NCBI GenBank assembly: GCA_024867545.1
Contig: JANFNE010000005.1
Coordinates: 1,054,001-1,118,000, forward strand
Source: Phytopythium helicoides
Taxonomy: Eukaryota > Oomycota > Peronosporomycetes > Pythiales > Pythiaceae
Reading direction: 5' to 3'
DNA: 64,000 nucleotides
Position numbers and translations under genes: made by a program. The notes under the pieces were generated by a model that did no database searches, had not been told where the DNA came from, and worked only from the letters and a program-made list of their open reading frames with translations. Below, piece after piece: positions 28,491-56,332 of the stretch (its first letter is position 1; each line of letters opens with the position of its first letter).

Positions 28491-30835
28491 CTACTGATGT
28501 TCCTCTTTCCCAGTCTTGACAATGTAGAAGAGCGCGTGAATGTTGTTGTTCTTGATCGCCTTCCGGCACGCTGCGATGACAGTCGACTTGGCGTTGCCGA
28601 AGCGTAAACGCGCAGCAAGCTGGATCATGTTATTGACCTCCTTCAGCGCATCCAACAATGCTTGGTGGTTGGTGCTGCGCTTGGTATATTCGCCTAGCAG
28701 CTGGTTGTTGAGAGTAAAGAGCTCCGAGTAGTAGCGGCGCATGCGTGACCTGTATCGTAACGGGCGCTTTGGTCAGCATTGACACCAGCATGACAATAAC
28801 TCCACGCTTGGTTGACGTACATGTCGTTGAGAATGCGGGCATCTTCGACACGGATTACAAGGTTCTTGACCTGGTTAGAGTCGTCAGCCATTTCGCCGGT
28901 GAGCTTGAGCCGAATGGCGTTACACTCATCCACGCGCACGAGCAAAGCGCGGAAGTCATCCATTTGTCGCGGAAAATCAGCGATTGACTCTAGCTCGCGC
29001 CACTCGAGGAACCCGCACATGTGCTGCACAAGCTCGGCTGCGAGCTCCATGTCGTCGGTGCGGAATTCGGTTTCGTTGGCATTGACACTCAATACCAACG
29101 CGCTGCCATCGCGCGCATTACGGAAAATGAGAGAGACGTGGGTACTCTCTGGGATCGATTGAGTCAGCGTGAACGCCTGGTCCACCCAACTGATCATTTG
29201 ATGTATCTTAAGAGGCGTACGAAACTTCACACTGCCCTTGGGTGTTTCCAAGCCTTCGAGTCCCGGGAGGTGAACAAAGACGGCAAATTTGGGGAGCTTG
29301 AAGCCTGATTCAAACACGTGGAACGACAAGTTGTTGCCCCGCGACCCCACTAGCACCTTGATATCCAGCTTGGCTGCTGTGTGTTTTGTCAGTGGGAGCG
29401 GAATAGTCAACGTTGAAGCCATCGTTGTTGGCCGAATAACAAGTGATTCGCCCTCGAAGATACCAGCGTCATATTCGTACAGGACAACCATTTTGATCAC
29501 GTGCTCGTTTTCGGTAGAGATCTCCAGCTCGAAGCCGGTTGATGACTTGGTCGTCGCGTTTTTGACTTTGATTTTCGTGTCTGCGCGGATACGCAGTCCC
29601 CCAGGCTTCCCGCTCTTGCCGGCACCAGAAGATCCACTTGTGCTACCAATCACAGAGGAGCCACTGAGACTCGCCACACTGATCCCGCTGCTTGATTTAG
29701 ACGAAGAGTTTGCCTCCAGTGTCTTGAGCTCTAACTGCAGGTCTGCCTTGTGTTTGGAAAGCTTGGCAACTTCCTTCTCTTCCTTTGACGCTTTTTCTGC
29801 GGCGGCGGTGCTCATTCCACCGGCAATCGGACCAGGTGAATCCCCTGACGGCGTCAAGTAGCCACGAATCTCACCATCCGCCGAGCAGCAGATGAGCTGA
29901 TCACTCCCGTCCATGCGATAATCTCCAGAGACCAGTGCTGCCACAGGCGAGGAGAAGACTTCTCTGTGTGCGACCTCTCCATTGGCGACCTTTCTTGCTT
30001 CAAATTTGCCATTATTCCACCCGATCACGATTTCCCGATCGCCGTCGCCGTTGACATCAAAACTGTGGATTGCCACGGGAATGTTTTTTGATTTGACGCG
30101 CCACGCTCGGCTCTTGCCTTTGTAGACGCCGACAGTGCCGTTGTCGAGTGCGTAACCAAACAGATTGGCGGGTTTATCTGTTGTGGTGGTAATTGGCGTA
30201 AGCGCTAATACGGCGCTCGTCTCGGTGCATTCGTACATGAGCTCTTCGTTCTGGAAAGCGCGGATCTCGTAATCATCGGAACCGACGATTAACTCGTCGC
30301 GGCCATGTCCAGTCACATCTCCTAGCGACAGCGCGCGCACGTTGTCGCCCGTGACGGTCCAAAAGAGTTCGTTACCGTCTCCCCCGAAGCCCTGGAGTGA
30401 GCAGTTTCCACCCACGACGACCATGCGGGACGGCTCGACCACCGTCGACTTCAGCGTCGGCGCTGGCGCAAAAATCATGGTGTGCACGCCATCGGGCACA
30501 TCTTTGTAGAAAATATCCGAGTTCTTGTCGACGTTGTATGCGAGCAGGCTGGCCTGCGTGCCGACAACGAGTGAATCCCCGGCGTCTGACGCCTTGAACT
30601 TGCCCGATGCCAGTGACGTGATGCGCCGGTTGACCTTGAGGAAGCGTACGCGCTGCTGGCCGTCGCCCGAATCGAGCGCCTCGTCATTGTCCGTCTGCTC
30701 GTTGGGCGAGTGCAGGAACACCTTGCCTGCCGTCGTGCCACAGGCCAGCGCTGCATGGCGTCCGTCGAACTTGCCAACCTGCGCCACCCGCTCGAGCACG
30801 GGCTGGTGCAAGTGCACCTGGAACGCCGGCTGCAT
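28491..30835 (-). CDS. BBS2: BBSome subunit BBS2
   Basis: Core BBSome component that moves membrane cargo in cilia and flagella, here probably the zoospore flagella. Exon 1 is 30835-28821 and exon 2 is 28749-28491, joined in phase; about 757 aa. N-terminal beta-propeller: FQVHLHQPVLERVAQVGKFDG, HAALACGTTAGKVFLHSP, VVGTQASLLAYNV, VGGNCSLQGF, NVRALSLGDVTGHGRDELIVGSDDYEIR and HSFDVNGDGDREIVIGWNNG. Then a coiled coil (KEEKEVAKLSKHKADLQLEL), a GAE/platform region, and a C-terminal helical part (RRYYSELFTLNNQLLGEY, IQLAARLRFGNAKSTVIAACRKAIKNNNI) that follows the human ending closely. The start at 30835 matches the usual short N-terminus. Its promoter abuts the 3' end of the tandem family array. Confidence 0.95.
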
Positions 30836-30990
30836 CCCCACGCTGGTACGTTGGCACTTGGCGGCTCTCACTGCGGTCACCACGAAGGCGACGGGTCGAT
30901 GCTGCTCGGCAGTGACCTTTGGCGTCCAGCGTTGGCATGTAGCCATCGCCGTCGGAGATGGCTACACCGCGTTGAATAATCAATTCATTT

Positions 30991-35803: not shown

Positions 35804-38800
35804 ATGTCGGAATGGGAGGCCGATGAGCGCGACGGGCGGCTGCTGCGCGCGGCCGCGAGCGGCGACGTGGCGCAGGTGCGGGAGCTGCTGGCGGCCGGAG
35901 CTTCTGCAAATGGGGATGGGCGTGAGGCGCGCGCTCGACCGCTGCACTGGGCGGCGGAACGCGGACACGCAGACGTCGTGCGGCTGCTGGTGGATCGCGG
36001 GGCGGAGGTGGACGCCGTATCGGAGAACGGGGCGACAGCGCTGGTCCTCGCAGCCAGGAAGGGCCATGCGAGCGCTGTTCGGGTGCTCGTGGACAGTGGT
36101 GCAGATGTAAACGTGACACTTCAAGGGGGGAGGACGCCGTTGTCATCGGCATTTGTGAATGGCGGGGGCTTCCATGACGGACATCGCGACGTCGTGAGGT
36201 GTCTTGTGGATGCCGGAGCTGATGTTAGTGCAGCGGTGAAGGGGGGAGCCTCGATGTTGATTCAAGTAGCGAAATGGGGAGACGTGAACGCGGTGAGGTG
36301 CCTCGTTGATTGCGGCGCATCCGTAAACGCCTTGGATGACTACGGAAGGACCCCACTGCACGTTTCTTGCCGTCAAGGACACGCCGAAGTTGTGCGAGTC
36401 CTAATTGGGCATGGAGCTGACGTGAATGCCAGTGACATTGATGGACTGACACCTCTGATGCGAGCCGCAGTGACAAGTCGCCGCGACGTGGTCGAGCACC
36501 TCATTGAATGCGGTGCACTGGTTGACACCAAGTCTGCAGACCGAAGCACGGCACTCATGCTCGCTGCAAAGTCCGGTATGCTGAATCAAGTTGAGTACCT
36601 CTCGGGAGCTGGAGCAGATGTGAGTGCGGCAGATGACGACGGGTGGACACCATTGCTGCATGCAGCTGATGGTGGATTTTTGGATGTCGTTCAATTTCTA
36701 GCGAATAACAAGGCGAATATCGATGTGCCAGACAGTTTCGGAAGCACCCCACTGATGCGAGCTGCGCAAGCAGGTCATGTGGATATAGTGCGGTTTCTCA
36801 TCGACCACAACCCAAATGTGAATTCGATTGACATGTACGGTTGGACTCCGCTCATTCGGAGCGCAAAAGATGGACGTCATGATGTTGTCAAGTTTCTCCT
36901 TGACCACGGTGCAGATGTCAATGCCACTGACAATTATGGGAGGTCGTCATTGATGATGGCTGCGAGAGGTGGTCATTTAGAAGTGGTGAAGCATCTTTGT
37001 GGCCATGGCGGGCAATCGGATGCTGCGGACAAATACGGGAGTACCGCGTTGATTCTAGCTACAAGAGGTGGATACTTCAGCGTTGTGCAATTTCTAGTTG
37101 ATTATGGCGCAGACGTGAACGCGGTGGATTTAAATGGTGAGTCTGCTGTGCTCCTCGCAAGTAGACATGGGTATCCTGGAATTCAGCGGCTTTTGATTCG
37201 CCACGCTTCGTGGACTGCAGCAAAAGACGCACAATCTTCCCCCACGATCACTGTCACGCTAGCCAGCTTACCAAAGTGGTACATTGCACCTTTTGAAGTG
37301 GAAGCAAACCAGTTCGACGATACGGTAATAATTGGTGGCGAGTTCCGTGGCAAATGGCTGGACGCTGATGTCGTACTGAAACTTTTCGTTCCTGATGCCT
37401 CGAACACAACTTTTGCTGACGAAGTTCGAGTTTGGCACCAACTTCGTCACCCGAATGTGATCAAATTATATGGCGCATGCAATGTAGGGCACCACTTCTT
37501 TGTGTGCGAGTTCGCAGGAGAAGGCTCGGTTGTGGAATATCTCTCGCGCTGTAATCCAAATCATCGAACCCCCTGGAGATATCTTCATCACGCAGCACTC
37601 GGCCTAGCATATTTGCATGAGCGAGGGATTTTTCATGGCAATTTACACGGAGACAATATTTTAGTCGGAGATGATGGCTTGGCAAAGCTGACGGGCTTTG
37701 GGCTGAGCGGCTCAAGTCGCGATGTGGGTGAAAGCAACACGTTTTCGCGTGGTTTCACTGGGTTATTGCGCTGGCAGTCTCCTGAGCAACTCGAAGGAGA
37801 ACGATCATCATTTGCATCAGACATTTACTCTTTTGGACTTTGCGTAGTTCAGCTATTCACTGGTGATATACCGTGGGCTACTCAGCCTTTGTGGAACGTT
37901 GAATTCATCAAGTCTCAGTGGTGCCCAGAAAATTCCTACTCCCGAAAATATGATCCCGCTGACATTCCAGAAGATATCCGGGCACTCATTGTTCAAATGT
38001 GCGCGCTCGATCCTGACAACCGCATATCAGCATCAAGTTGTGTCCGAATATGTGAGCATTGGGCTGCTGACGAAGAGGTCCAATTGCAGGCCTCTGAACC
38101 GGAGCTGGAGCCAGGAGTGAGCATCAGTGCCTTTGCTGATGGAAACCTACTAAAGGTCTGGACAGATATCCAGCATCTAGCTTCTACCGGTGAAAAGAGC
38201 CTCCTTATGAATTTTTCCCAAACCCTTCAGTCCGTATTCAAGGAGATTGAGCGACAACCACAGCCACGTGAGTTGCTGGAAAAGTTATACCAACTGTTGA
38301 CCGACCTGTGGAATTCGACCCAAAACGCGTCGCACATCAGCCAAGTACTTCGTCTTTCATCAATACGTACCTCTGGAGACAGCTTGTATGGGTTTCGACG
38401 CCGTATTGGCGATATAGAAAAACTCCTCGGTATGCGACCAAACATTAACACGCTCAGCAGCGAATCATCTACCTCGGCACACAGCTCAGAGGAGCGAGCA
38501 CTTTTCATCTCCGAGATTTCGAAAACATGGATGGTTCTGGACGAGCTACAGTCAGACGAGGAACGTTGCGCTTTCCTCACGTGGTTAGACTCGGAGATCA
38601 AGCATCCCAAACGTCACTACACGGATGAACAAATGGAGTCGCTCTACACATCTTACAACAAGATGCTAGCAGAAGCTGGCAGCGGAGTCGGCACAAGTAT
38701 GAGTGCTCCAGTCTGGTTCATACCTTGGTATGAGCTGCTCGTTGATGAGTGGCAGATGGTTGGGTCTGGTGGGTTTGGAAGTGTTTTCCGCGCAAAGTGG

Positions 38801-40099
38801 CTCGATTCAGATGTGGTAGTGAAACGAGCAGGTTCTTGTGTCGCAGACATCTCTGGTGCAATGACATGGTCGATGTCGTTCTCAATGACGAGCCGGCGAG
38901 ACAGAACTGTCAGTGAGCAAAGCGCAAAGCAAGATGAAGAGCGCTCAGTATTTGTGCGAGAAGCTGACATTTGGTTCAATCTAAGCCATCCACACGTCGT
39001 TCGACTCTTTGGCGCGTGCCATATTGGACAGCTGTTCTTTGTCTGCGAGTATGCCGCGAATGGATCGCTGGACAGGTATTTGGAAGAGCACCCACATCAA
39101 ATTTGGCAAAAACTCTACGAAGCAGCGCTTGGTCTCCAGTATCTGCATGAACGTGGTGTTGTTCACTGCGACCTCAAATGCAACAACATTGTCGTTGGAA
39201 GAGATGGAAAAGCAAAAGTGACAGACTTCGGACTCAGCTTGGCAGCCACAACTGCTACGGAGAATCGGGCTGGAGACCATATCACTGGCGCGTGGCACTG
39301 GTTAGCTCCAGAGTTACTAAGTGACCAAGATAAGATCCCAACATTCGCGTCTGATGTGTTTTCGTTTGGTATGTGCATCATCGAGGCGCTGCGCGTTGTC
39401 GCCGATCAAGAGCAAGATTCAGTTATCAATCTCCCCTGGCAAGGACTTAGTGCACCGATGGTCAAATACAACGTCACGCACGGCAAGCTTCCTACGCGTC
39501 CATCAGGTTGTACAGACGCACAATGGTCGCTTGTCGAGAAGTTATGCCGCTTCGAACCGAGCGAGCGCCTACAGGTGTGCTCCATTGTTGACGAGCTTGC
39601 CACTTTCATTAACCCCGAGGCAAGTACTATTGGATCGTTTGGCACCGACATGCCAAGCGTATTAAATTCTATGAAGCGCCGGTTAGAACGTTTGGAAGTT
39701 GATGGCGGCAATGATGCTTCCAGCTCCACTCTTATCAACATTTGCAAGCTGCTGTTGGCACGAGTTGTTGACGTTCAGAATCAACCAAACTTCTCTGCCC
39801 AGGCAAAGAAGCACCTGGAGGCCTTAGTGTCAGACTTCCAAGCTCTTTCATACCTGATCTCACCTTCTGAAGGGACGCTAGTTGAGTTCACGGAGCTTGC
39901 CTTGAAAGGGTACGCGCTGCATCGACGCCTGGATAAGCTAATCCTTCAGAGTTCCGTTGCAATCTCTGGAATTGATGGGCAAGTCTCCAGTATTCACAAG
40001 TGGAAGGAGCGATGTTACAGTTACCTTGGGGTTCGTGTCGAGGATGGAAAGAATTCTGGCTCAACGCGTATCGATGCGAAGGGATGTTGGCACGAATAA
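35804..40099 (+). CDS. Ankyrin-pseudokinase-kinase protein 1 (TKL type)
   Basis: 1431 aa, single exon, no frame break. Residues 10-465 are about thirteen ankyrin repeats (GRTPLHVSCRQGHAEVVRVLIGHGADVN type). Residues about 490-770 form a first kinase-like domain opening with KWYIAPFEV. Its glycine loop is missing, the HRD position reads HGN (FHGNLHGDNIL) and the DFG position reads GFG (LTGFGLSG), so it is a predicted pseudokinase. A helical linker follows (about 790-960). Residues about 968-1270 are a complete kinase: WFIPWYEL, GSGGFGSVF, VVVKRAG, HCDLKCNN, TDFGLSL and WHWLAPELL. The Lys-x-x-Asn after HCD is typical of serine/threonine TKL kinases. A second helical segment ends the protein. 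Both kinase modules start with a W-(Y/F)-I-x-x-(F/Y)-E signature and are followed by similar helices, so the pair probably arose by internal duplication. The layout recalls JAK (pseudokinase then kinase). No transmembrane segment is seen. Confidence 0.92.
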   Translation: MSEWEADERDGRLLRAAASGDVAQVRELLAAGASANGDGREARARPLHWAAERGHADVVRLLVDRGAEVDAVSENGATALVLAARKGHASAVRVLVDSGADVNVTLQGGRTPLSSAFVNGGGFHDGHRDVVRCLVDAGADVSAAVKGGASMLIQVAKWGDVNAVRCLVDCGASVNALDDYGRTPLHVSCRQGHAEVVRVLIGHGADVNASDIDGLTPLMRAAVTSRRDVVEHLIECGALVDTKSADRSTALMLAAKSGMLNQVEYLSGAGADVSAADDDGWTPLLHAADGGFLDVVQFLANNKANIDVPDSFGSTPLMRAAQAGHVDIVRFLIDHNPNVNSIDMYGWTPLIRSAKDGRHDVVKFLLDHGADVNATDNYGRSSLMMAARGGHLEVVKHLCGHGGQSDAADKYGSTALILATRGGYFSVVQFLVDYGADVNAVDLNGESAVLLASRHGYPGIQRLLIRHASWTAAKDAQSSPTITVTLASLPKWYIAPFEVEANQFDDTVIIGGEFRGKWLDADVVLKLFVPDASNTTFADEVRVWHQLRHPNVIKLYGACNVGHHFFVCEFAGEGSVVEYLSRCNPNHRTPWRYLHHAALGLAYLHERGIFHGNLHGDNILVGDDGLAKLTGFGLSGSSRDVGESNTFSRGFTGLLRWQSPEQLEGERSSFASDIYSFGLCVVQLFTGDIPWATQPLWNVEFIKSQWCPENSYSRKYDPADIPEDIRALIVQMCALDPDNRISASSCVRICEHWAADEEVQLQASEPELEPGVSISAFADGNLLKVWTDIQHLASTGEKSLLMNFSQTLQSVFKEIERQPQPRELLEKLYQLLTDLWNSTQNASHISQVLRLSSIRTSGDSLYGFRRRIGDIEKLLGMRPNINTLSSESSTSAHSSEERALFISEISKTWMVLDELQSDEERCAFLTWLDSEIKHPKRHYTDEQMESLYTSYNKMLAEAGSGVGTSMSAPVWFIPWYELLVDEWQMVGSGGFGSVFRAKWLDSDVVVKRAGSCVADISGAMTWSMSFSMTSRRDRTVSEQSAKQDEERSVFVREADIWFNLSHPHVVRLFGACHIGQLFFVCEYAANGSLDRYLEEHPHQIWQKLYEAALGLQYLHERGVVHCDLKCNNIVVGRDGKAKVTDFGLSLAATTATENRAGDHITGAWHWLAPELLSDQDKIPTFASDVFSFGMCIIEALRVVADQEQDSVINLPWQGLSAPMVKYNVTHGKLPTRPSGCTDAQWSLVEKLCRFEPSERLQVCSIVDELATFINPEASTIGSFGTDMPSVLNSMKRRLERLEVDGGNDASSSTLINICKLLLARVVDVQNQPNFSAQAKKHLEALVSDFQALSYLISPSEGTLVEFTELALKGYALHRRLDKLILQSSVAISGIDGQVSSIHKWKERCYSYLGVRVEDGKNSGSTRIDAKGCWHE

Positions 40100-40566: not shown

Positions 40567-40934
40567 ACAATCGTCACTACACGGATGAACAAATGGAGTC
40601 GCTCTACACATCTTACAACAAGATGCTAGCAGAAGCTGGCAGCGGAATCGGCACAAATGTGACTGCTCCAGTCTGGTTCATACCTTGGTATGAGCTGCTC
40701 ATTGATGAGTGGCAGATGGTTGGGTCTGGTGGGTTTGGAAGTGTTTTCCGCGCAAAGAGGCTCGATTCAGATGTGGTAGTGAAACGAGCAGGTTCTTGTG
40801 TCGCAGACATCCCTGGTGCAGTGACATGGTTGATGTCGCTCTCAATGATGAGCCGGCGAGACAGAACTTTCAGTGAGCAAAGCGTGAAGCAAGATGAAGA
40901 GCGCTCAGTATTTGTGCGAGAAGCTGACATTCGA
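40567..40934 (+). pseudogene. Truncated duplicate of ankyrin kinase 1 (kinase N-lobe)
   Basis: About 365 bases match 38611-38975 at roughly 95 percent by eye, from RHYTDEQMESLYTSYNKM through the glycine loop GSGGFGSVFRAK and VVVKRAG to READI. The match stops abruptly at both ends, before the catalytic loop. The frame is open within the fragment, yet no start context, ankyrin part or catalytic core exists, so it is a recent partial duplication rather than a gene. Unrelated sequence flanks it on both sides. Confidence 0.85.
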
Positions 40935-41570
40935 CGCCATGCTCTCTTCCCCTCAGTTGGCAAGTTTCAAGATGGAGCTCAAGCGACTGCTCTCCGCGGT
41001 TCACGACCCAGGGCCACTCGCTTGAGCATCCACCGCGCGAGAAGACCTAGGCGAAGACTCATCCTCTCGTGATCAAGAGCAGACTCCACGACTCAGCTGG
41101 ATCCAGGCATTCGCGAAAACCAAGCACCTCGCCTCGGCTTCAGCTGAGCGTCCAGGCTCAAGATCTTCACGGTGGCTCAAGCGGCGGCTCCATCGGACGC
41201 TTGCGAAGACCAAGCTGCGTCTGTCTGCTGCTGCTCGGCCACGCTCGAGAGCTGCGTCGATGAGCGAGTGTCGTGCGCCAGCGAAAACCAAGCAACGCGC
41301 GCGACGTTCAGCTTGACGACTTCAGCACGAGAGCGCCGTCGAGGGGACGCGTCTTCGTAACTTCGGTCGACATGCGCGGCTAGCCAGCTTCTTCCGGGAC
41401 TACAGCGGGGCGTCACAGACGTATGCAGTCGAGCAGACTCTAGTCTCTCGCTGCGCGGCGCAGTGTTCCGCACTCGCCGTGAAAGCTACACTTATCTCGT
41501 TCGATATACTAGAGTAGCTACTGTGGTATAATTGTGCTCTTCGCCCACTCCGACTCCACTCATCATCACC
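40935..41570. other. Degenerate repeat-bearing region before AARSD1
   Basis: No intact gene. GCGAAAACCAAGC-like elements occur at about 41113, 41203 and 41281, which on the minus strand read as LVFA(N/S/G). It may be the remains of a repeat protein or mobile element. The AARSD1 promoter is within the last 100 bases. Confidence 0.35.
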
Positions 41571-45454: not shown

Positions 45455-47857
45455 TTACTGAAGTACGAGCTGATTGAGAGCTGCGTCCGCAAACTCCACG
45501 CGGCGAGCGAGTAGTTCCTTTGTTCTTGAAGCCGAAAGTTTCCATCGAACTCCGCGAACCGCGCGACCAAACACATCAGCAGCATCATCAGGCTCGTCAA
45601 CAACTAGAACAGCAGCCATCTGCGTCAGCTCAGCAAACGCATCTCTTGCATCACACTGCTCGTTGAAAAACGCAGTAAGCACGCGCAAATCTTTGTCAAA
45701 CTGTAGTGCGCCGAGCTGGTTAAACCTTGCTCCACGGGTGTCCATCCACTTCGCGATCAGCTCTGCTGTCGTTTGGGCAGCAAGCTCAGAGACGCTTCGG
45801 TAGTTTACCGGGGAGAGAGTGTCTTTGAAGGAGCCGAGCAAAGCACGCAGCCCCGCGACAAATGCCACCGCAAAGGGGTCATTTGCTTCGTTGAACGTGA
45901 ACTGAGCCTCAGTTAGCTCGTATGTTACGGCGGCACGCTTCGAAGAACCAGGAGCTAGCAGTGGAGCGAGCGCAGTCGAGATTTTAGGCTCGAGCAGCTT
46001 GAGTAGCTTCTTGCGACTCGCATTCAGTACTTGACCCAGCTCATTGGCAGCATCTGCCAATCCATCCAAGGATGAGCGTAGATGTGCCGGAATATCTGCA
46101 AACACTTGGTCCAGTTCCTGAGCAAACTGCTCCTTAATCTGGCCAATATACTCGGTTGTGGCTTCCAGACTGTTCATGACCACATCAGGCCCACATTCTT
46201 TGCGCAATTCAGTTGAGTTTCCTGTCATCGAAGATGAAGCTGCCGCGCCCGGAGCCGATGATCCAAGCGGGATGGGACCCATGGTTTTGCTGAACTTTGC
46301 AAATTGCTGGGTCATCTGGTCTCGCAGCTGTGTTCCCGCATTGGCTAGACTCGCCTCAGATTCGAACTTGATAAATGCCGCCATATTCAACACTCGGCCA
46401 CGCATGGCATCGCCCAGAACATCGCGAAGCACAGTATTGATCATGTTGAGTACGCCGGCAGCACAGTCGCTATGACCAGTGGCCAGTGCACGCAGGCCGG
46501 AGTTCCGTGCCACGTAAAAGATTTCGTCCACAGCTGATGAGATCGGAAACGTCGACACACTCGTGCTGTCGCCACTTACGGCCGGCGGGTCGGCAGATGA
46601 AGAGTAGTGGAGTTCCTCCCACTGAAATGCCTTGCGTGCTGCCCGATTCAGCAGGTCGTTTTCAAAGTAACAGTAGAAACCGGCCAGCTCTTGCACTGTT
46701 TTACCCAGCTCACTTTCGTGACTGAGTGGGAGTCTTGAAAAAGAACTCGATAGACTCGATTCATCTGCAATCTCTTGGGGAGCTGTCGTTTCATTTGGGG
46801 CTTCAACCACCTCGCGCGACCGCATAAACCTCTCGAATGTCTGGGTGTGCTGGATGACAAGCGCAATTTCGTTTAGCCGCTCGTTCATCATAGCAACATC
46901 ATCCGGCGCGTCATCACTAGGCACTGCAGCACTAGCAGTTCCGGCTGGCCCACTCGGATCCACACGCTGCTCCGTTGCCGCCATCTTCTGCTGGAGCTCC
47001 CGTTGCTTCATGTAGGCGACGAGTACTCGAACCGCGTGTTTCTCACCAATGCCATAAAGCTTCGTCAGAAGGCGACCATGACCGTCTACACCCTGGAAGC
47101 TGTTAGTGACAAGCGCGCCAAGCTCCTGCTCCACTGCTGCAACTGCATTGAACGCCGTCGCCAGATGCTCCAGCAGCTCCTTCGTGCTGAAAGTACCGTA
47201 CGTCATGGGTGAAAGCTGCTCTTCCAGTCGGTCCTCCACGTACGCGAGCATCATACCAAATCCGACCTCTTCGAATGCGCTACCAGCGCCGCAGTCGCGG
47301 AACAGTGGTGCGACGCTGTGCATGACTCGCGAATCCGAAGCTCTCAGCGCCCCAGCCCAGTCTGCTTCAACTGCTGCCTTTAGATCGCTCTCGGCCGTGT
47401 CGAGACGCAGCTTGTCGGCCGCGTCCAGCTCCGTCGTGCGCTCAACGGCCTTGAGCTCGCGTAGGAAGCCTGCGGCGGCCGCGTGCTGGCGCTGCCCGAG
47501 CGCACGACGCACACCCGCCAGCGCGTTGCGCAGCGTGAGCAGCTCGCCGCTCTGGGCCAGCGCGCGCGTCATACGCGACTGCACGACGTCCAGGCGGCGC
47601 ACCTCGCGCGTCATCTTTTCGGCCACGTCGTTGGCGTTGGCGATGCGCTCCACCACGGCGCCAGTCTGCATGCCCAGGGCCGCCACTTCGGGCGACAGGC
47701 GCAGTAGTTCACGCACGGAGCTCGCCACCGCGCGCTTCTCGGGCGCCGCGGCGTCCAGCGCGAACGCGCGCGCCTCCTGCTGCAGCGCCAGCCGCGCTGA
47801 GCGCACGGCCGCCAGCCGCGCCGTCAGCGCCTCGTGTCGCTCCTCACGCCGCCCCAT
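45455..47857 (-). CDS. COG4: Conserved oligomeric Golgi complex subunit 4
   Basis: Lobe A subunit of the COG tether that captures retrograde vesicles at the Golgi. 800 aa, single exon, uninterrupted. The N-terminal coiled coil (REVRRLDVVQSRMTRALAQ) precedes the helical-rod domains. Recognisable blocks: LLTKLYGIGEKHAVRVLVAYMKQRELQQ, SSAVDEIFYVARNSGLRALATG, NMINTVLRDVLGDAMRGRV, YELTEAQFTFNEANDPFAVAF, FKDTLSPVNYRSV, RFNQLGALQFDKDLRVL and FAELTQMAAVL, followed by the typical C-terminal ending VRWKLSASRTKELLARRVEF. These track human COG4 in order. The ATG at 47857 gives the shortest plausible leader. A CCAAT box lies about 65-70 bases upstream, near 47924. Confidence 0.95.
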   Translation of the reverse strand: MGRREERHEALTARLAAVRSARLALQQEARAFALDAAAPEKRAVASSVRELLRLSPEVAALGMQTGAVVERIANANDVAEKMTREVRRLDVVQSRMTRALAQSGELLTLRNALAGVRRALGQRQHAAAAGFLRELKAVERTTELDAADKLRLDTAESDLKAAVEADWAGALRASDSRVMHSVAPLFRDCGAGSAFEEVGFGMMLAYVEDRLEEQLSPMTYGTFSTKELLEHLATAFNAVAAVEQELGALVTNSFQGVDGHGRLLTKLYGIGEKHAVRVLVAYMKQRELQQKMAATEQRVDPSGPAGTASAAVPSDDAPDDVAMMNERLNEIALVIQHTQTFERFMRSREVVEAPNETTAPQEIADESSLSSSFSRLPLSHESELGKTVQELAGFYCYFENDLLNRAARKAFQWEELHYSSSADPPAVSGDSTSVSTFPISSAVDEIFYVARNSGLRALATGHSDCAAGVLNMINTVLRDVLGDAMRGRVLNMAAFIKFESEASLANAGTQLRDQMTQQFAKFSKTMGPIPLGSSAPGAAASSSMTGNSTELRKECGPDVVMNSLEATTEYIGQIKEQFAQELDQVFADIPAHLRSSLDGLADAANELGQVLNASRKKLLKLLEPKISTALAPLLAPGSSKRAAVTYELTEAQFTFNEANDPFAVAFVAGLRALLGSFKDTLSPVNYRSVSELAAQTTAELIAKWMDTRGARFNQLGALQFDKDLRVLTAFFNEQCDARDAFAELTQMAAVLVVDEPDDAADVFGRAVRGVRWKLSASRTKELLARRVEFADAALNQLVLQ

Positions 47858-48381
47858 GCTGCCTCGTGTTTGGGGATCGGGATATCGGAGTGGAAGGAAA
47901 TCAATAACGGATTTAGTGACCAATAGGCTGCCAGACCAGCTTCCACAGCTATGACCACTTCGACCTTCATCGCTCCACCGCGTCCGAAATCTGCAACACA
48001 TCCTATTGCGAGCGCGGTGACGCAAGGGAAGCTAATGATGGCCTTACGAGAGGCGCGCTGACGCCAAGCGTGTGCACGAGCGAGAGCCAAGTCACATACC
48101 GTCCTTTAGTGTCGTGTTTACGAGAAAGTTACAGCTGAGCTGATGTGAGCACTACGTTCCGTGAAGGAGCTTCCTACATCCAACGTCAATGCTGCACCCA
48201 GCATGTATCTCCTAGCAATACCGGCTTCCTATTTTTTCGTCGTGAGTAGTGTCATGTTTATTGGTGCGTCTGTCTGCAAGTTCGTTGTTATGTATGAGGG
48301 GCTTCCTCCGCAAGTTTATTGTGCTCGCTAGCTACAATACCTGGAGTTAGTTCACCTCGATTTTTGAGTTGGCTTCAAACT
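47858..48381. other. Intergenic between COG4 and ankyrin kinase 2
   Basis: No gene supported. It holds the COG4 5' flank and the 3' flank of the kinase. Confidence 0.45.
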
Positions 48382-51300
48382 TCATCCTTCAGTTGAAACC
48401 CCGAGCGATTCCCAACACTTTGTCTTCCACTGGTGAATATTTACTTTTTCAGCAATTCTGCTTCCGTTTGGGACCCCCTCTGCCACCATTAATTTGTCAA
48501 GGCGACGATGCAGCGTGTATGCTTTCATTGCCATATGATTGAACTCGACGAGACTGTCACTCAGAGCTCTTGCTTGTGCTGTGGCTGCTTCAGCTTCAAG
48601 CACAAGTTGTTTTAGTCGAGATGCCACCGCTTGATTTTTATGTATGCATGCAAAGATATCGCTCAAACGCTCCCATAGTAGCTTGTATACTAGTTGCAGC
48701 ACATCACTTGAGCGGAGACAATTTGATTCAGATTCCCAGCACTCGATATGTCGTCTAGCAACCAAATGACAATTCGAAAATTCTGAATGCCATTCCGAAT
48801 TGGAAGAACCTTCTTCAACGACACCGTAAACATTGGTTGCCATTGCAGCTAGCTCGTCCACAACTGAGCAAATTCGAATACGATTCGTGGGTTTTAATTG
48901 ACACATTTTTTTGACCAGCTGCCACTGAGCATCCGTGCATTTTGTTGGACGAGGTGGAAGTTGCCCTCGCACAGCATAATACTTGACTGCAACGTTATCG
49001 AGACTCCTCCATGGAAGAGTGTAATCGCATAGCTCTTTGTCCGTAGATATGATTCGAAGTGCTTCGACAATACACATTCCAAACGAAAACACGTCTGAAG
49101 AAAAAGTTGGTGATTTGCCTTGGTCCATCAGCAACTCTGGGGCCGTCCAGTGCCATGCCGCAGAAATGTGGTCTCCTATATCGCCACTATTATTAGAGGA
49201 AGTTAAGCTCAAGCCAAAATCTGTCACTTTCGCCTTGCAGTCATTCCCCACAACAATATTGTTGCACTTCAGGTCGCAATGAACAACCCCGCGCTCGTGA
49301 AGATATTGAATCCCTAGAGCAGTTTGATGTAACATCTTCCATATTTGAGATGGATGTTTCCGAAGATAGGTATCCAACGATCCGTTCGCAGCATATTCGC
49401 ACACAAAGAATGGATTTCCGACATGACAAGCACCGAATAGTCGAATAACATGCGGATGGCTCAGATTGAACCAAATGGATGCCTCTCGTATGAATGTTTC
49501 TCGAGGCACTTTCTGCTTTTTATCATGTCGTACCAAACAGAAGAGAAGTTGGAGCTCAAATACGATGCGCCTATATAATCGTTGTCACAGCCTGCCCCCA
49601 CGCGCTTCACAACGACCTCCGAGTCTAGCCATTTTGCCCGAAATACGCTTCCATACCCACCTTTCCCTAAAATATGCCATTCGTCGACGACCAATTCATA
49701 CCACGGTACGAACCAAACTGGAATACTCTGAAGAGGCTCTCTGTTACTACCAGCCTTCATTTGAATTTCACTAAAAGCCTTGCGCATTGTTTCAACTTGT
49801 TCATCAGCATAAAGATGGTTTTGATTCTTGATCTCTGAACTCATCCAGTTGAGAAAAGCAGTGCTCTCCTCCACTGATTGGAACTCGCCAAGTATCATCC
49901 ACGTTTTAGATACTTCAGACACAAACATTTGTGGCAAACTAAATTCATGAGCTTGCACAAGAGTTTCAATAGCCTGTGTGTTAGCGCCAATGAGCCGCTC
50001 GATACGCTTAGCACGTTCCTGAAGGCTGTGAAAACTCTCTCTGACTGCGCCCGTGGATGATAGTCGCAGAATCCGATTAATATGACTTTTGTTACGAGTC
50101 GCGTTCCATATGTCCACGAGGAGTTCATGAAATATCCGTAATACGCTGAGCTGCTGCAGTGATTGCTGTAGTTGCGAAAAAATGTTTTCAATGCTAGTTA
50201 ATAGTCTGCATGGTAGCCGAAAAAACTCGCCTGTCTGGTTTTGATATTTGATGCCTTCCCAAAGCATTATCAATTCTCCATTCTGAAAGTCGGTGAGAGT
50301 AAGCATTGGTTCTGGTTCTGGCTGTAACAATTGGTTATCATTCTGCTCCAGGATTTTGTATTGCTCCAGGATCCGAGCACAATATGTGGCTGATATCCGA
50401 CGCCTCGGATCGTGGCAGCACATTTGTGCCAACAACTCACGCAAACTATCATTGAGTTCTCCTGGTTCATCCATGGGATCTGAATCAGACTCCGGCTCCC
50501 AACACTGTTTGAATAAGCACGTAATACTATTTTCAAAACGCAGCAAACTTTCATCTTTGTCACTTGCGTCGTCTTGCCAAGGAACTTGACCGCTCACCAA
50601 TTGGAAAATGCAGAGCCCAAATGAGTATACGTCTGATGCAAATGTTGTTCTCCCCCCATTTAGCTGTTCTGGGGATTGCCAACGCAAATGTCCAGTGAAT
50701 TCACGCGACAAGATTTCAGTATTCCGGCTTGAGGCACTTAACCCGAATGCCCCTAGTTTTGCTACACCGTCATCTCCAATTCGAATGCTTCGATCGTTTA
50801 AATTCCCGTGAATTATTCCTCGTTCGTGCATGTAAGACAGACCAAGCGCGGCTTGGTGAACAAACGTCCACGGGGTGTGAGAGTTTGGGTCGACACGGGT
50901 GAGATATTCGAAAGCTGATCCATTACTCGTGTGCTCAAATACAAAGTAAAGATGACCGAGGTTGCACGCTCCATACAGCCTTACAATATTCGGATGCCGG
51001 AGTTGATGCCAAACGCTGATCTCTTGTTCAAGTGTAGAACTCGATGCGTCTGGGGTGAAAATCTGTAGTACCACCTCTGATTCAAGCCACATTGCACGGA
51101 ATTCGCCGCCAGCAGTATCACCGTCTAGGAGTTGTATAGTCTCAATTTCAAACGGTGCAATAAACCATTCTTGAATCTGTGGAGTACCGACCTTATCCCG
51201 TTGACTCTGGTCATCTTTCATAAGAGTATGAACAGATGTGTGTTGATTAAGTAAGTAGCACCGAAGGGTGTGATGATCATGCTTGGCAGCAAAATGCAAA

Positions 51301-52767
51301 GCCGATTCGTTTTTTAAGGTGAGTGCGTTTGCATCAGCACCTTTTCTGAGGAGATACTTCGCTATATCAATCATCCCATGTGTAGCAGCAAACATCAGGG
51401 CTGTCCAACCCTGCTCATTCTTTGTGTTCACGTCGACACCACTTTCAACTAGAAGTTGCACAACTTCTATGAAGCCATGATCTGCTGCAGCCATCAGCAG
51501 GGTGTACCCCTCAGAATTTGTTACATTGTTGTCTGCTCCTTCTTGGATGAGATAGTTTACAACATTTGCATGCCCCCTCTTTACTAGCCACGAATAAAGG
51601 GGTTTCTCCGGTAGCATTCGCTGCATTGATATCTGCACCGCGTTTCTTGAGAATCTTCACAGTGTCAAAATGACCGTTGTATGCAGAATGCATGAGTGGT
51701 GTCCATCCATCGTAATCAGCTGCATCAATGTCGACATCACGCGCACACCCAACGAGGTGGTGCACGATTGACCAATTTTGGCTGGAAGCAGCGAGGATTA
51801 ATGGGGTACGGCCGAATGAGTCTACTGCTTTGACGTTCGCAGACTGCGAGACCAAGCATTGTACGACTTCTAGATAGCCTCGGCATGCAGCCATCATTAA
51901 AGATGTCCACCCACGTTTATCTTCTGCATTTACATCTGCACCAGCTTCAACGAGATACTGAACTACGTCCAGACGCTTTCGCCTCGTAGCAAGCATGAGA
52001 GCAGTCTTCCCGTAACTATCGGTGGCATTCACATCCGCGCCACTCTCGACAGCGTTTTTCACCACGTCTAACAGAGATACTTCCGCCAGTATAAGCAGTA
52101 ATGGCCTTCTAATAGATCGTGCGAGATACTCGAGAGCCTTCTGTTGACGGCTTTTGATGGCTTGCAATATCGGGGTCCATCCGTCGTCATCTTCCAAATC
52201 CACAAGCGCTCCGTTATCGACGAGAAACTGAACGACACTCAAATGCCCTCCCTTGATCGCCTGAATCAATGGTGTCCACCCTGACGCTGAGAGCATCAAA
52301 GGAGTCCTTCCATCCATCGTCGTTGCATTCAAATCTGCGCCTTTCCTTGCAAGATACTCGACAATCTCCAAGTGCCCATGCTCAGCAGCAAGCATCAATG
52401 GCGTGCACCCGCACTGCCCACTTCCGTCAACCTCTGCTCCACAATTTACCAGGCGCTTCACAACTTCCAAATACCCAAACTCGGAAGCCGCGTGTAGTGG
52501 CCTTACAGAGCCGTGGTCGAAGTTGTCCCCGTTCACGCTAGCACCCCGTGCGATCAGCTCGCTGACCCGCTCCAGATCGCCACGTCGAGCAGCATCCACC
52601 AAGTCGTGATCTTGCGTGGCGCCTGGCGACATCTCCTCGACAGAACTCGGCCGCAGGCTCGCCATCTCCCAACTGAAATGGCTTTCCCGTTGTGCCGAGT
52701 CCCCGACGGAAGACTCACAGCAGTCACCCGGGCGGGCTGATTTGCTGTGCACGCAAGTCAAGCCCAT
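48382..52767 (-). CDS. Ankyrin-pseudokinase-kinase protein 2 (two frame breaks)
   Basis: Paralog of the gene at 35804, same domain order on the opposite strand; about 1460 aa once the breaks are bridged. Roughly fourteen ankyrin repeats run from 52620 to 51240. The first kinase-like domain (EWFIAPFEI, about 51180-50330) has HGNLNDRSI in place of HRD and GAFGLS in place of DFG, so it is again a pseudokinase. A helical linker follows. The second kinase has WFVPWYEL, GKGGYGSVF, VVVKRVG, HCDLKCNN and TDFGLSL and looks active. Two compensating one-base shifts occur: an extra G in a five-G run at 51573-51577 (plus-strand C5), and a loss near 49531-49550 between the Lys motif and the helix-C region. 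Outer parts share one frame. The start at 52767 gives a 30-residue leader; a later in-frame Met is also possible. Confidence 0.88.
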
Positions 52768-52835: not shown

Positions 52836-55800
52836 ATGGACTCTCAGGTGGCGACGTACGTGGCGCTGAGCTCGCGCCTGGCGCAGTTCCTGCAGCTCGC
52901 ACCGTCCCCAGTGCTCGACGAGTCGCTCTGCTCAGTACTGGAGGAGCTCGAGCGCTTTCTGCGCGTCTCTGGGGCTCAAGGCGGCGCTCACGATGACGCG
53001 GCGGGCGTCTCGCTGCTTCCACCGGCAGCAGTGGACGACTTGGTGCTGCTCTCGCTGCACAAGCTGCTCATGGGCTACGTGGCTGAATGCGGGAGCCAAA
53101 AGGTGCAGGAGAGCACGTTCCGAGCTCTCCGAGCGCTGCTCAGACGCAGCTCGACATCGGCGCAGACGTCCCAGCAGAAGCTGTTGAGCTTTGTCCAGAG
53201 GTAAGATGGCGGGAAATATTCATCGTGCTCGCTTATTGCCGACCTAACGCGATCTGTAGCTGTGTGCTGTATTTGCCGACGCCAGCAGCTGCAGTTGATG
53301 CGTCAGCGGGCGAGCAGACGTTACCACTCTCTGAGCAAAGCGAAGATTTGCGGCTCGCCGTTCTCGAGTGTCTGAAGATGTTTTTTTCTGTTGATCGTGC
53401 CAGAGACGGAGGCAAGAAACTCAAGCTACAACTCACATCGTCCCAGGAAGTTCACTTTGTCGCGTATCTGATCTCGTCGCTGCTCCACATTGCCGAGAAT
53501 GACAAATATCGTGACGCAGCACTGCTGGCAATGCAAACGCTGGCGCTCGTCGTTCATTGTCTTGATAATGATCCAGCCACTCTGCGCCAGTTCTTTCCAG
53601 GAATTACTGGTGGCGTATGGAAGTGTGTCAATGCACCTAACCAAGCGTCTAAGGTCGTTGTTGCGGCCGTTGGGTGCCTTTCAGACGCTATTGATGCATG
53701 CTTAGCTGACGAGAAGAATTCCAAAGAGCCCAAGAAAGACTATTCGCTCGAGTCACTTCGAGAGTTTGCTCAAAGCAACACGTTGTCGAAGCAGGAAGGA
53801 ATCCAAGATACCTCCAATGGTAGTAATAATGCTGTCGACAAGTGGTTGGAAGAAACGTCTGTCAACTTGGATCTGGCATTGGCACGCATTTTCGCAGTAG
53901 GCCAGCGCTCGCGACACCAATCAGCATGGAGAATCCGGCGATCACTTGCAGAACTCTGTGGCACAATGGTGTTGTGCTGCCGTGCGACGCTGCATGAATC
54001 ATTCTTCCGCTGCTTTGAGGAGCTCCTCGTCTTTCAAGTCGATCCCATTCCAGAAGTCGCAGAGTCGGCAATGCGCATCACCAGTTCGCTCAGATGCACG
54101 CTTTCAGCTACAGAGTGGCTGGAGATGCTCCCAGCTTTTGCCGACCGCTTTCAATCACAACTTGCAACACTCGAGCTCAAGTGTACGACGGAGCACGAAG
54201 GATTCAGTGCACACATTATGAAGAAGATGGAAGGGTACGTTTCCTATTTGGGCGAAAGGCTTCAGCCTTTCATCGATCGATCGATCCCGTCAATATTCAA
54301 GTCTCTCAGCCATGTGCTCGAGTTTGAAAGCATGGATATCGACTTGATTGTGCACCAAACAATCCGCCGAGTACCAGTTGCTACCGATGAAGAAGCAGCA
54401 CTTGTTGTATCCCACTACCAGAAGCGGCTAAAACATTTTCATGAACAAGACTCAGTTGATGCCGCATTTAGTTTGATGCATGCAATCGGGCGAGTCTCCA
54501 CGCCAGCTGTCTACATCGATACCGCATTCTCCATTCTTGCACCAGAGGATGCTTCCCATGACAGTACAAACGATCTAATCGACGTTGGTGGGGCCGAGGT
54601 GATGCTGCTTCTCAACGAATTCCTTCGCGCGCACAGCTTGAACCAGTCGTCGAAGTTGGGGACGTCATTATCAATTGGCCCTAGCGATGAGTCACAGTCG
54701 AATCACCGTGTAGACGTTCACCTTGTTGGACGTATATTGGAGGATTTGCTCAGCATTGATGTTTGGAACGAACCGCGTTCTCAACAAGAACCAAAATCTC
54801 GAATGAACCAGCGTGCACTCATGGTGGAGTGCGTTGGTATTTGCGTCGAGATCCTTCATTGTGACTTCGCTGTATTCTTGCTCCACACTCTGTACCCTTT
54901 GGTTGAAAAACTCGGTTCGCGGTCGCTGCCCGTGGAACGGGCGGCTCTCGCAACACTGTCAAAGATGTATTTCTTGTGTGACTACGAGTCTATGGATGCC
55001 CTCTTTGAGGCTAACATGGATTATTTCGTCGATGCGCTTTGCTCACGACTCGAAAATCTCGACGAGTTCCCGCTTTCAGCACTGGTGGTCGAGGCTCTGC
55101 TACAACACACAAAAATCACATCACTGCCCTTAGCTGACGAAGTTACCCATGCACTACTTCGAAGTATTGACATTTATCAGGAATCCCCTTTTACGGATGG
55201 TCTTTTGCGTTCTCTCCACGCGTTGCTGCGTAGCATTGCAAGCAGCCAGCAAGACAGTCTTCACCATGAACCTGGTATTCAGGAGTCGCAGGAATCACTC
55301 CTTTCACGGTTTATTGCGGAAATGAAGGCATTTGCTGAAGACGAAGACTTCGACATCGACGAACCCCCGCGATTTGAAGAGCTTAAAGAAAGCGACAAAC
55401 TCTCTGAGCCGAGTATCAAGGGTGCTATGCCTGTGGAATATAATGAAGGTGATGTACTTAAGGGTTCAGGAGATGCAGAAGACGACGAAGACTTGAGCGA
55501 TCCTCTCAGCCCGCTGTATCGATCTCTGATCGTCGAGATTCTGGATCGATCTGGATATTTCGTTGCCACTCCCGATCCATTGGCGTGCTGTCAGGTGTTG
55601 TCACTCATGGAAGATGGCTTCCATCTGCTGGCGAAGTCTCAGAAGCAACTTCTTCCGCTCATTCACATGTTGTGGCCGTCGCTTCTCCCCCGACTTCGCG
55701 CTGAAAGTCGCGCAATCGTTGCATCCACTGCTCGTGTCATCTCCACTTTGGGGCGAGTGTCTGGCGACTTTATCGCCAGCCGTTTTGTGGAGGATGTGTG

Positions 55801-56332
55801 GCCTCAGTTCCGCCGTCAGCTCGGGGATATCAATTTCGACGAACACGTTCCTCAGCTCACGCGGTCCATGCTGCTTCTTGACGCTTCAGATACCAGCGAG
55901 CACTTAGAAGATGAGCAGGTGCATGTAGTGCCTCTCGGACGCAAGACGCAAGAAATTCGGCAACTGCTTGCCATTCTGGAGTGCATCACGACCATTGCAA
56001 AGCATACAGATGCTGTAAGCTCAATAGTCCCAGACATACTTGCTGCTTGCACCAAATACCTGCACCATTCCGTGCCGACGGAGATTGTTGAGGCTACAAC
56101 GACATTATTGTTCACGTTGCACGAACTGAATGGCGACGAGGTATTTGTCGCGATTGCGTCACTGGCTGACTGGGAGCCTCTGCATCCTCCAAGTAGCAAG
56201 TTTCCGGCTTTCACGCTGGAGTCGACTCGTTCTGTGTATCGGTCTCACGCCACGACATTTGGCGGTACTGCTTCGTTTGTCCGCGGGTGCGCTGCGAATG
56301 CTCAACGAGTAATGACCCGACTCTCAAGCTAA
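52836..56332 (+). CDS. TTI1: TELO2-interacting protein TTI1
   Basis: HEAT-repeat scaffold of the TTT complex (TELO2-TTI1-TTI2), which matures PIKK kinases such as TOR, ATM and ATR with Hsp90. Exons 52836-53200 and 53260-56332 join in phase; about 1145 aa, close to the family length. Blocks: DLRLAVLECLKMFF, RDAALLAMQTLALVVHCL, LRQFFPGITGGVWKCVN and SKVVVAAVGCLSDAID in the N-terminal half. The C-terminal LLPLIHMLWPSLLPRLR and ISTLGRVSGDFIASRFVEDVWPQF match the most conserved TTI1 block. An acidic loop (EDEDFDIDEPPRFEELKESD) precedes it. The 3 kb second exon is completely open, in contrast to its neighbours. Transcribed divergently from ankyrin kinase 2. Confidence 0.9.

Follow-up and report, generated by a model that had tools for sequence, protein, structure and literature searches.

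An oomycete family of ankyrin proteins with a putative pseudokinase placed ahead of a kinase

Why would a protein carry a kinase domain that appears disabled directly ahead of one that appears to work? The question is raised by a gene in a 64,000-nucleotide stretch of the Phytopythium helicoides genome (assembly GCA_024867545.1, contig JANFNE010000005.1, positions 1,054,001 to 1,118,000; hereafter the window). The gene is a single, intron-free open frame in one exon (35804..40099, forward strand, as are all features of the gene given below), and it encodes 1431 amino acids arranged as an ankyrin array, a pseudokinase, a helical linker, a kinase and a helical tail. We consider that it probably encodes a signalling protein with an ankyrin input, a disabled first kinase domain (kinase 1) and a working second one (kinase 2), the latter a non-RD serine/threonine (Ser/Thr) kinase of tyrosine kinase-like (TKL) type under control in cis. 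The order itself is known from JAK, GCN2 and some plant immune kinases; what is apparently new here is a large oomycete expansion of it with ankyrin arrays.

Motifs and predicted structure of the window protein

An earlier reading of the locus, made from the DNA letters without database searches (the sequence-only reading), had proposed an ankyrin array, a pseudokinase, a helical linker and a kinase in one chain, and had named profile searches of both modules, structure prediction and a survey of other oomycetes as checks. The layout was borne out by the open frame, by Pfam, by hidden Markov model (HMM) searches and by AlphaFold2. A Pfam scan of the whole protein (E 0.001) found ankyrin repeats in the first third, followed by two kinase stretches. 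The ankyrin array (35828..37213) has ~14 repeats by eye and matched Ank_2, Ank and other Pfam entries. The borders of the kinases were set by a kinase profile built from relatives, which placed kinase 1 at residues 490–752 (37271..38059) and kinase 2 at residues 969–1268 (38708..39607). The two domains were identical at 91 of 251 aligned positions.

The motif table agreed with the proposal that the first module has no glycine loop and reads HGN and GFG, whereas the second has every motif. In kinase 1, the GxGxxG site reads FDDTVIIGGEFR and the glycine loop is lost. The VAIK lysine (VLKLF; residue 526, 37379..37381, column K49 of a 954-residue piece) and the helix-C glutamate are kept. The catalytic loop is HGNLHGDN, with HGN in the place of HRD (residues 611–613, 37634..37642, column H134 of the same piece), and GFG replaces DFG (residues 631–633, 37694..37702, column F155). 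A pseudokinase is defined on sequence by loss of the VAIK lysine, the HRD aspartate or the DFG aspartate, and kinase 1 of the window protein lacks both aspartates. Kinase 2, in contrast, contains GSGGFG, VVK, HCDLKCNN, TDFG and APE. Its VAIK lysine is residue 1007 (38822..38824, column K530), the HCD of its HCDLKCNN catalytic loop lies at residues 1121–1123 (39164..39172, column H644), and its DFG at residues 1141–1143 (39224..39232, column D664). With its motifs intact, kinase 2 looks active and of the non-RD Ser/Thr type.

A helical linker of 216 residues (38060..38707) separates the kinases, and kinase 2 is followed by a linker-like C-terminal tail (39608..40096) with four predicted helices. 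The AlphaFold2 model of kinase 1, linker, kinase 2 and tail, made from 55 sequences, had a mean predicted local distance difference test (pLDDT) score of 81 and a predicted template modelling (pTM) score of 0.85, so that structure prediction returned the proposed kinase–helical linker–kinase arrangement. Both the linker and the tail were helical in the model, with weak stretches in the linker; its helix list gave approximately four to five helices in the linker followed by three longer ones. Modelled alone the linker reached a pTM of 0.63, and searches with the linker alone found no confident match.

The linker and the tail resembled each other when compared with hhalign (probability 80.7, E 1.3e-5, versus 0.5 for the reversed tail). 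A column-shuffle control with 40 shuffles gave an outlier score of 132, above the real score of 41.4, and gap-rich columns were suspected. When the comparison was limited to columns with residues in 50% or more of the rows, the shuffle maximum was 17.9 (100 shuffles) versus a real score of 34.2, at a probability of 66.5. The first half of the linker is thus likely, though not proven, to be homologous to the tail, and therefore the repeated unit would be a kinase plus a helical bundle. Such a unit would probably have been duplicated once in an ancestor.

A family with a damaged first kinase

The genome is that of an oomycete near Phytophthora: among species with names, the BBS2 gene of the window was most similar to Phytophthora ramorum and P. 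infestans (68% each), ahead of P. kernoviae (66%) and Globisporangium ultimum (65%), and records without a species name reached 81–92%. We searched the 49 Mb assembly (100 contigs) with each window kinase separately and paired the matches by position. For kinase 1, 88 matches of 140 rows were kept (~44% identity or more), and the other 52 rows (weaker matches, fragments and matches to kinase 2) were excluded; for kinase 2, 96 matches of 138 rows were kept (214 bits or more). Results showed that 87 of the 88 kinase 1 matches were followed on their own strand, at no more than 1.5 kb, by a kinase 2 match, giving at least 87 pairs in the genome. The remaining kinase 1 match had no partner, and not one pair among the paired genome matches had the reverse order, with kinase 2 before kinase 1. 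The gap between the two kinases was 580–680 bases in 69 of the 87 pairs. Pairs were spread over 28 contigs, three of which held 11, 11 and 9. There may be fewer than 87 working genes, some contigs being possibly allelic and some copies possibly broken.

A protein search with residues 470–1431 returned 532 proteins, of which the best 120 were used, a set that leans toward window-like proteins. Organism names among these listed matches were Phytophthora, Nothophytophthora or Globisporangium, all oomycetes. After removal of proteins that had kinase fragments or more than two domains, the 120 proteins, 20 loci from the same genome and the window left 110 proteins or frames, each with two nearly complete kinase domains and no more. 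The family was defined as the 80 of these 110 whose kinase 1 was at least 38% identical over profile columns to kinase 1 of protein P0001 and closer to it than to P0001 kinase 2; it was made up of 61 proteins plus 19 frames of this genome. The remaining 30 were other tandem types, except for P0067, which the domain tree placed inside the family. With P0067 included, 35 of 81 members had a species name, and these represented ten Phytophthora species and one Nothophytophthora. The proposed survey for ankyrin–pseudokinase–kinase proteins thus found relatives in both genera among the best 120 of 532. The spacer between the kinases was 198–239 residues long in 73 of the 80 members. The window copy fits the traits of the family: its kinases fall in separate clades, its linker is near 210 residues, and it has GG[DE][FY] for the glycine loop.

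Other tandem arrangements were also seen. Three proteins (P0061, P0063, P0078) showed the reverse state, with the first kinase intact by motifs and lesions in the second; both of their domains fell in the kinase 2 clade, and they probably represent a second, independent origin. Four further oomycete proteins (P0076, P0082, P0087, P0090) had three or four consecutive kinase domains, the last of which looks the most intact.

We counted lesions over seven features, with gaps in cut domains scored as lesions. Kinase 1 had at least one lesion in all 80 members and at least two in 77, and kinase 2 had none in 73 of the 80. The lysine was kept in kinase 1 of 77/80 members, the helix-C glutamate in 77/80, the catalytic-loop asparagine in 74/80, the HRD aspartate in 48/80 and the DFG aspartate in 18/80. 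The most frequent state was K-D-N-N (HRD aspartate kept, asparagine for the DFG aspartate), found in 36/80, and K-N-N-D occurred in 9/80. A single lesion was found in three members: L031 and L032, which have lost the glycine loop only, and P0037, which reads DFK. Kinase 1 was also the more variable domain (mean entropy 1.71 versus 1.21 for kinase 2).

For motif and tree comparisons we used a set of 84 rows, made up of the 80 members, three split-frame copies and P0067. GG[DE][FY] stood at the glycine-loop site of kinase 1 in 63/84 rows, the window copy included. GxGxxG was missing from kinase 1 in every row but P0037 and P0051; because these two fit the pattern, we rejected the statement that the glycine loop is lost in every kinase 1. 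Also rejected was the idea that HGN and GFG are common to all copies; the combination belongs to the window copy, and the commonest is HGD with asparagine at the DFG aspartate. In a tree of the 84 kinase 1 domains built with the motif columns removed, the HRD aspartate changed at least 13 times and the DFG aspartate at least nine times. So far as the sequences tell, damage to kinase 1 is conserved and the form of the damage is not. The glycine loop was likely lost first, in the ancestor, with the other lesions following along different routes, an order that we infer. The HRD and DFG aspartates were kept together in 4/80 kinase 1 domains (Fisher p 0.0003, raw counts); we do not claim this negative association as selection, and tree-based independent pairs gave no decision. 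In kinase 2, the arginine of HRD was absent in 84/84, and the catalytic loop was of the HCDLKCNN or HGDLKGNN type, with lysine at that position in 84/84.

The view that the inactive state of kinase 1 is conserved rather than accidental was part of the sequence-only reading, and it stood in part: every member has at least one lesion and the domain is under constraint (see below), but the same losses are not shared. That reading had relied on a diverged paralog of the same layout in the window (48388..52614, reverse strand, in three frame segments) as keeping the same losses. The paralog does have HGN in kinase 1, but it reads AFG, and the lysine (VLQIF) and the catalytic-loop asparagine are lost as well. 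Its frame is also broken twice, near 51.57 kb and 49.53 kb, in both cases without space for an intron, and the change at 51.57 kb adjoins a G run. It may be a pseudogene or carry sequence errors. The paralog is poor evidence for conservation, for which the genome-wide and cross-species survey is the better evidence. Orthologs from other species with an intact HRD and DFG in kinase 1 would speak against conserved inactivity, and in the surveyed family none had both whole; the nearest were P0033 of P. ramorum (HGD, DFE) and P0037 (HRD, DFK). Yet the same-genome paralogs L031 and L032 have a whole HxD and a whole DFG.

Constraint on kinase 1 and its probable role

In a FastTree tree of 243 domains (in which locus L030 was mislabelled), all family kinase 1 domains formed one clade with support of 0.994. 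The kinase 2 clade had support of 0.776 and included ten domains of five proteins in which both halves are kinase 2-like. Kinase 1 and kinase 2 distances were correlated across 73 proteins (r = 0.78), and 0 of 999 permutations reached a value as high, in a permutation that leaves shared ancestry in. These comparisons of sequences show that both kinases were inherited together.

The ratio of nonsynonymous to synonymous substitution rates (dN/dS) was calculated for close paralogs with mean dS of 0.02 to 1, which gave ten pairs from 20 own-genome frames. Median dN/dS was 0.215 for kinase 1 (9 pairs), 0.24 for kinase 2 (10 pairs), 0.44 for the linker (9 pairs) and 0.385 for the ~330 residues of the ankyrin part directly before kinase 1 (7 pairs). 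That decay is no faster in kinase 1 than in kinase 2, and that purifying selection on the two is equally strong in a few close pairs, is a conclusion that stands on few data. Because the lysine and the helix-C glutamate are kept (77/80 each), and because purifying selection resembles that on kinase 2, kinase 1 is by these signs a maintained pseudokinase.

How far does the domain order connect this family to known systems? The top Protein Data Bank sequence match of kinase 1 was TYK2 JH2-JH1 (4oli). With the two-kinase model, Foldseek returned 4oli as the best match, ahead of a JAK complex (8ewy) and, in third place, an EGFR kinase-domain duplication (9p9u), and VIA-align placed 9p9u ahead of 4oli; in such rankings every two-kinase chain gains from having two domains. 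Superposition over both kinase domains gave a root-mean-square deviation of 19–23 Å (~19 Å on 4oli, for a predicted model that is not proof of arrangement); therefore the predicted mutual placement of the kinases appears to differ from that in JH2-JH1. JAK and the window protein share a pseudokinase before an active kinase in one chain (here by motifs only), and JAK2 JH2 also has HGN. However, FERM and SH2 were not found in the Pfam scan of the window protein, which has ankyrin repeats there instead, and the catalytic loop of kinase 2 appears to be of the Ser/Thr type rather than that of tyrosine kinases. The linker also differs, at 216 residues versus about 15–30 in JAK (in passages of PMC5770812). 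Of the JAK regulatory layout claimed by the sequence-only reading, the order stood, the accessory domains, linker length and catalytic loop did not match, and the predicted packing appears to differ; that is, JAK-like is correct for domain order only.

GCN2 also has a pseudokinase preceding a Ser/Thr kinase, together with RWD and HisRS-like regions. Those regions were not found by Pfam in the whole window protein (E 0.001), which differs from GCN2 in its ankyrin array and its large multigene family. Obscurin, a muscle scaffold from another kinase group, has a disordered spacer between its kinases, whereas the linker of the oomycete protein is helical. It resembles the present family in that PK1-PK2 is a tandem of pseudokinase and kinase with a long spacer, and the two domains interact (passages of PMC10129394). 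Plant tandem kinases (WTK1/Yr15, WTK4, Rpg1) likewise combine a kinase with a pseudokinase and are multigene, and WTK1 has a non-RD kinase; passages of PMC6170490 and PMC11006675 describe either order and propose a decoy role, and the latter classes WTK4 and Rpg1 as pseudokinase–kinase. In passages of PMC6170490 the JAK analogy is already drawn for plant tandem kinases, and 92 of them are described as having no additional conserved domains. They are relatives of receptor kinases, whereas the oomycete family usually has ankyrin arrays and helical regions. By anatomy the family resembles the class formed by JAK, GCN2 and the plant tandem kinases, without qualifying as either JAK or GCN2.

Passages on the Phytophthora infestans kinome (PMC3019232) report three dual-kinase proteins, ankyrin repeats in three kinases and 32 inactive kinases, 19 of which are TKLs; PITG_06288, of TKL subfamily 1, has 15 ankyrin repeats before its kinase. 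Ankyrin–pseudokinase–kinase proteins were not found in main-text passages of that paper. Passages of PMC6502433 describe a large, clustered TKL expansion in Pythium guiyangense, and the layout was not found in them, nor in kinase or ankyrin passages of PMC11139960, PMC8396444 and PMC2926784. The sequence-only reading knew of no description of the tandem form, and in agreement with it, we found no description of an oomycete ankyrin–pseudokinase–kinase family in the openly licensed PMC literature.

In non-RD kinases the arginine that senses phosphorylation of the activation loop is missing. Because kinase 2 is non-RD in 84/84, it is doubtful that the usual switch by activation-loop phosphate operates, and a neighbouring domain could plausibly exert control instead. 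We propose that kinase 1 is most likely a cis regulator of this non-RD Ser/Thr kinase. In the proposed mechanism, the first copy of the duplicated unit would have lost its glycine loop and then, in several independent events, either catalytic aspartate or the two together; its framework would have persisted, as would the ATP lysine and the helix-C glutamate. The ankyrin array, in what is presumably an intracellular protein, would bind a partner, and kinase 1 and the linker would relay the resulting change to kinase 2. That is, the hold of kinase 1 and the helical linker on kinase 2 would be altered by ankyrin binding, the putative trigger.

The effect of kinase 1 on kinase 2 could be either inhibition, as in JAK, or stimulation, as in GCN2. 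We put stimulation at somewhat short of an even prospect. GCN2 has the same order and Ser/Thr type, its kinase is described as inherently inactive, and interaction with the pseudokinase stimulates it and is needed for high-level activity (passages of PMC4014428); the uniformly non-RD kinase 2 also makes help from a partner domain plausible. On the other side, the other domains of GCN2 were not found in the Pfam scan, and the present data do not tell the sign. A different role, which we think unlikely, would make kinase 1 a platform or bait to which partners, or molecules from another organism, bind, with no direct control of kinase 2. The decoy role proposed for plant tandem kinases in either order would fit it, as would a large, partly clustered family with ankyrin arrays of varied length; against it, kinase 1 is constrained like kinase 2 in the measured pairs, and a working contact between the modules would more readily account for the narrow range of spacer lengths.

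That kinase 1 is alive, as an unusual kinase or as a nucleotide binder, for example a magnesium-free one, is quite improbable in our judgement. Drosophila obscurin PK1, which has no kinase activity, binds ATP without cations (passages of PMC10129394), and the frequent retention of the lysine, the helix-C glutamate, the catalytic-loop asparagine and the HRD aspartate, together with the loss of the glycine loop only in L031 and L032, would suit such an activity. The window copy, however, has neither aspartate and no glycine loop, and the two aspartates are rarely kept together across the family. We strongly disfavour the explanation that kinase 1 is a remnant of the duplication, in decay and without a present role. 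The many changes of both aspartates on the tree and the higher entropy of kinase 1 agree with decay, but its dN/dS is near that of kinase 2, its framework residues are kept, and almost every kinase 1 match in the genome has its partner.

Several observations weigh against control in cis by a disabled kinase 1. Nine of the 96 genome kinase 2 matches had no kinase 1 partner, and the spacer was shorter than 198 residues in 7/80 members (~51 in L043), some of which may be gene-model errors; therefore kinase 1 and the full linker are not strictly required. The nearest neighbour was identical for both kinases in just 26 of 73 proteins. The dN/dS values come from ten pairs that are not independent, and some gene sets are mosaic: between L029 and L032, a comparison that also involves L031, dS was 0.04 in the ankyrin part and 1.35 in the linker, pointing to gene conversion or domain exchange. 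Kinase 1 of L031, L032 and P0037 could be active, and the contact between the kinases, like the regulation, is deduced rather than observed.

The family would add a further lineage, beside JAK, GCN2 and the plant tandem kinases, with a pseudokinase fixed ahead of a working kinase, in a group of organisms with large and unexplained TKL families. Its dozens of natural variants with differing lesions also make it possible to test directly which residues are dispensable for the function of a regulatory pseudokinase. As a separate observation, the frame of L043 (4693-7779), with ~51 residues between its kinases, is perhaps a natural linker deletion.

Ankyrin arrays and surroundings of the genes

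Tandem units of 99–102 bases or multiples thereof were found in 8/20 own-genome loci. In six of these (L028, L029, L036, L039, L042, L045) they lay inside the family frame, the longer units matching at up to 95%; they lay outside it in L033, and mostly outside it in L037, whose array is largely upstream of the frame. Three close paralogs, L037, L039 and L045, had about 9, 13 and 28 ankyrin units of 102 bases, respectively. Highly identical ankyrin arrays were rejected as a general trait of the family: 2/18 own-genome frames had unit pairs of 80% identity or more, by a crude pattern that misses units. The window copy had no homogenised ankyrin array and, by the same count, no unit pairs at or above 80%.

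Arrays of this kind raise the prospect of an oomycete counterpart of the NLR repertoire, in which fast-changing ankyrin arrays would recognise self or non-self and release a pseudokinase-gated non-RD kinase. Passages of PMC12222747 describe fungal NLRs whose repeat arrays, ankyrin arrays included, exceed 80% internal identity and change in repeat number. A few ankyrin arrays of the oomycete family share these properties, whereas no NACHT or NB-ARC was found in the Pfam scan of the window protein, and the output here is a kinase. A recognition repertoire is possible because of the changing unit number and high internal identity, with near-identical units of 33–34 residues differing in number between close paralogs in some copies, and because of copy number and clustering. 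The finding that just two of 18 frames reach 80% by the crude count, and the absence of a homogenised array from the window copy, count against it, and we regard the idea as doubtful. If it were true, an entire system of intracellular recognition in oomycetes would have gone unnoticed, and with ankyrin arrays as recognition modules the question of innate recognition in these organisms would arise.

A 134-base satellite lay beside family genes on two contigs, with 26 copies at L044 (6447-9901) and 11 copies at L034 (8317-9765), at 99% match. In the window, tblastn detected a fragment of a second kinase 2 downstream of the gene (40572..40958, forward strand); it covers part of the N-lobe, is 84% identical over 129 residues and is apparently the remnant of a tandem duplicate. 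Neighbouring frames at 28697-30946 (reverse strand), 45458-48025 (reverse strand) and 53087-56329 (forward strand) are of housekeeping type, BBS2, COG4 and TTI1, respectively.

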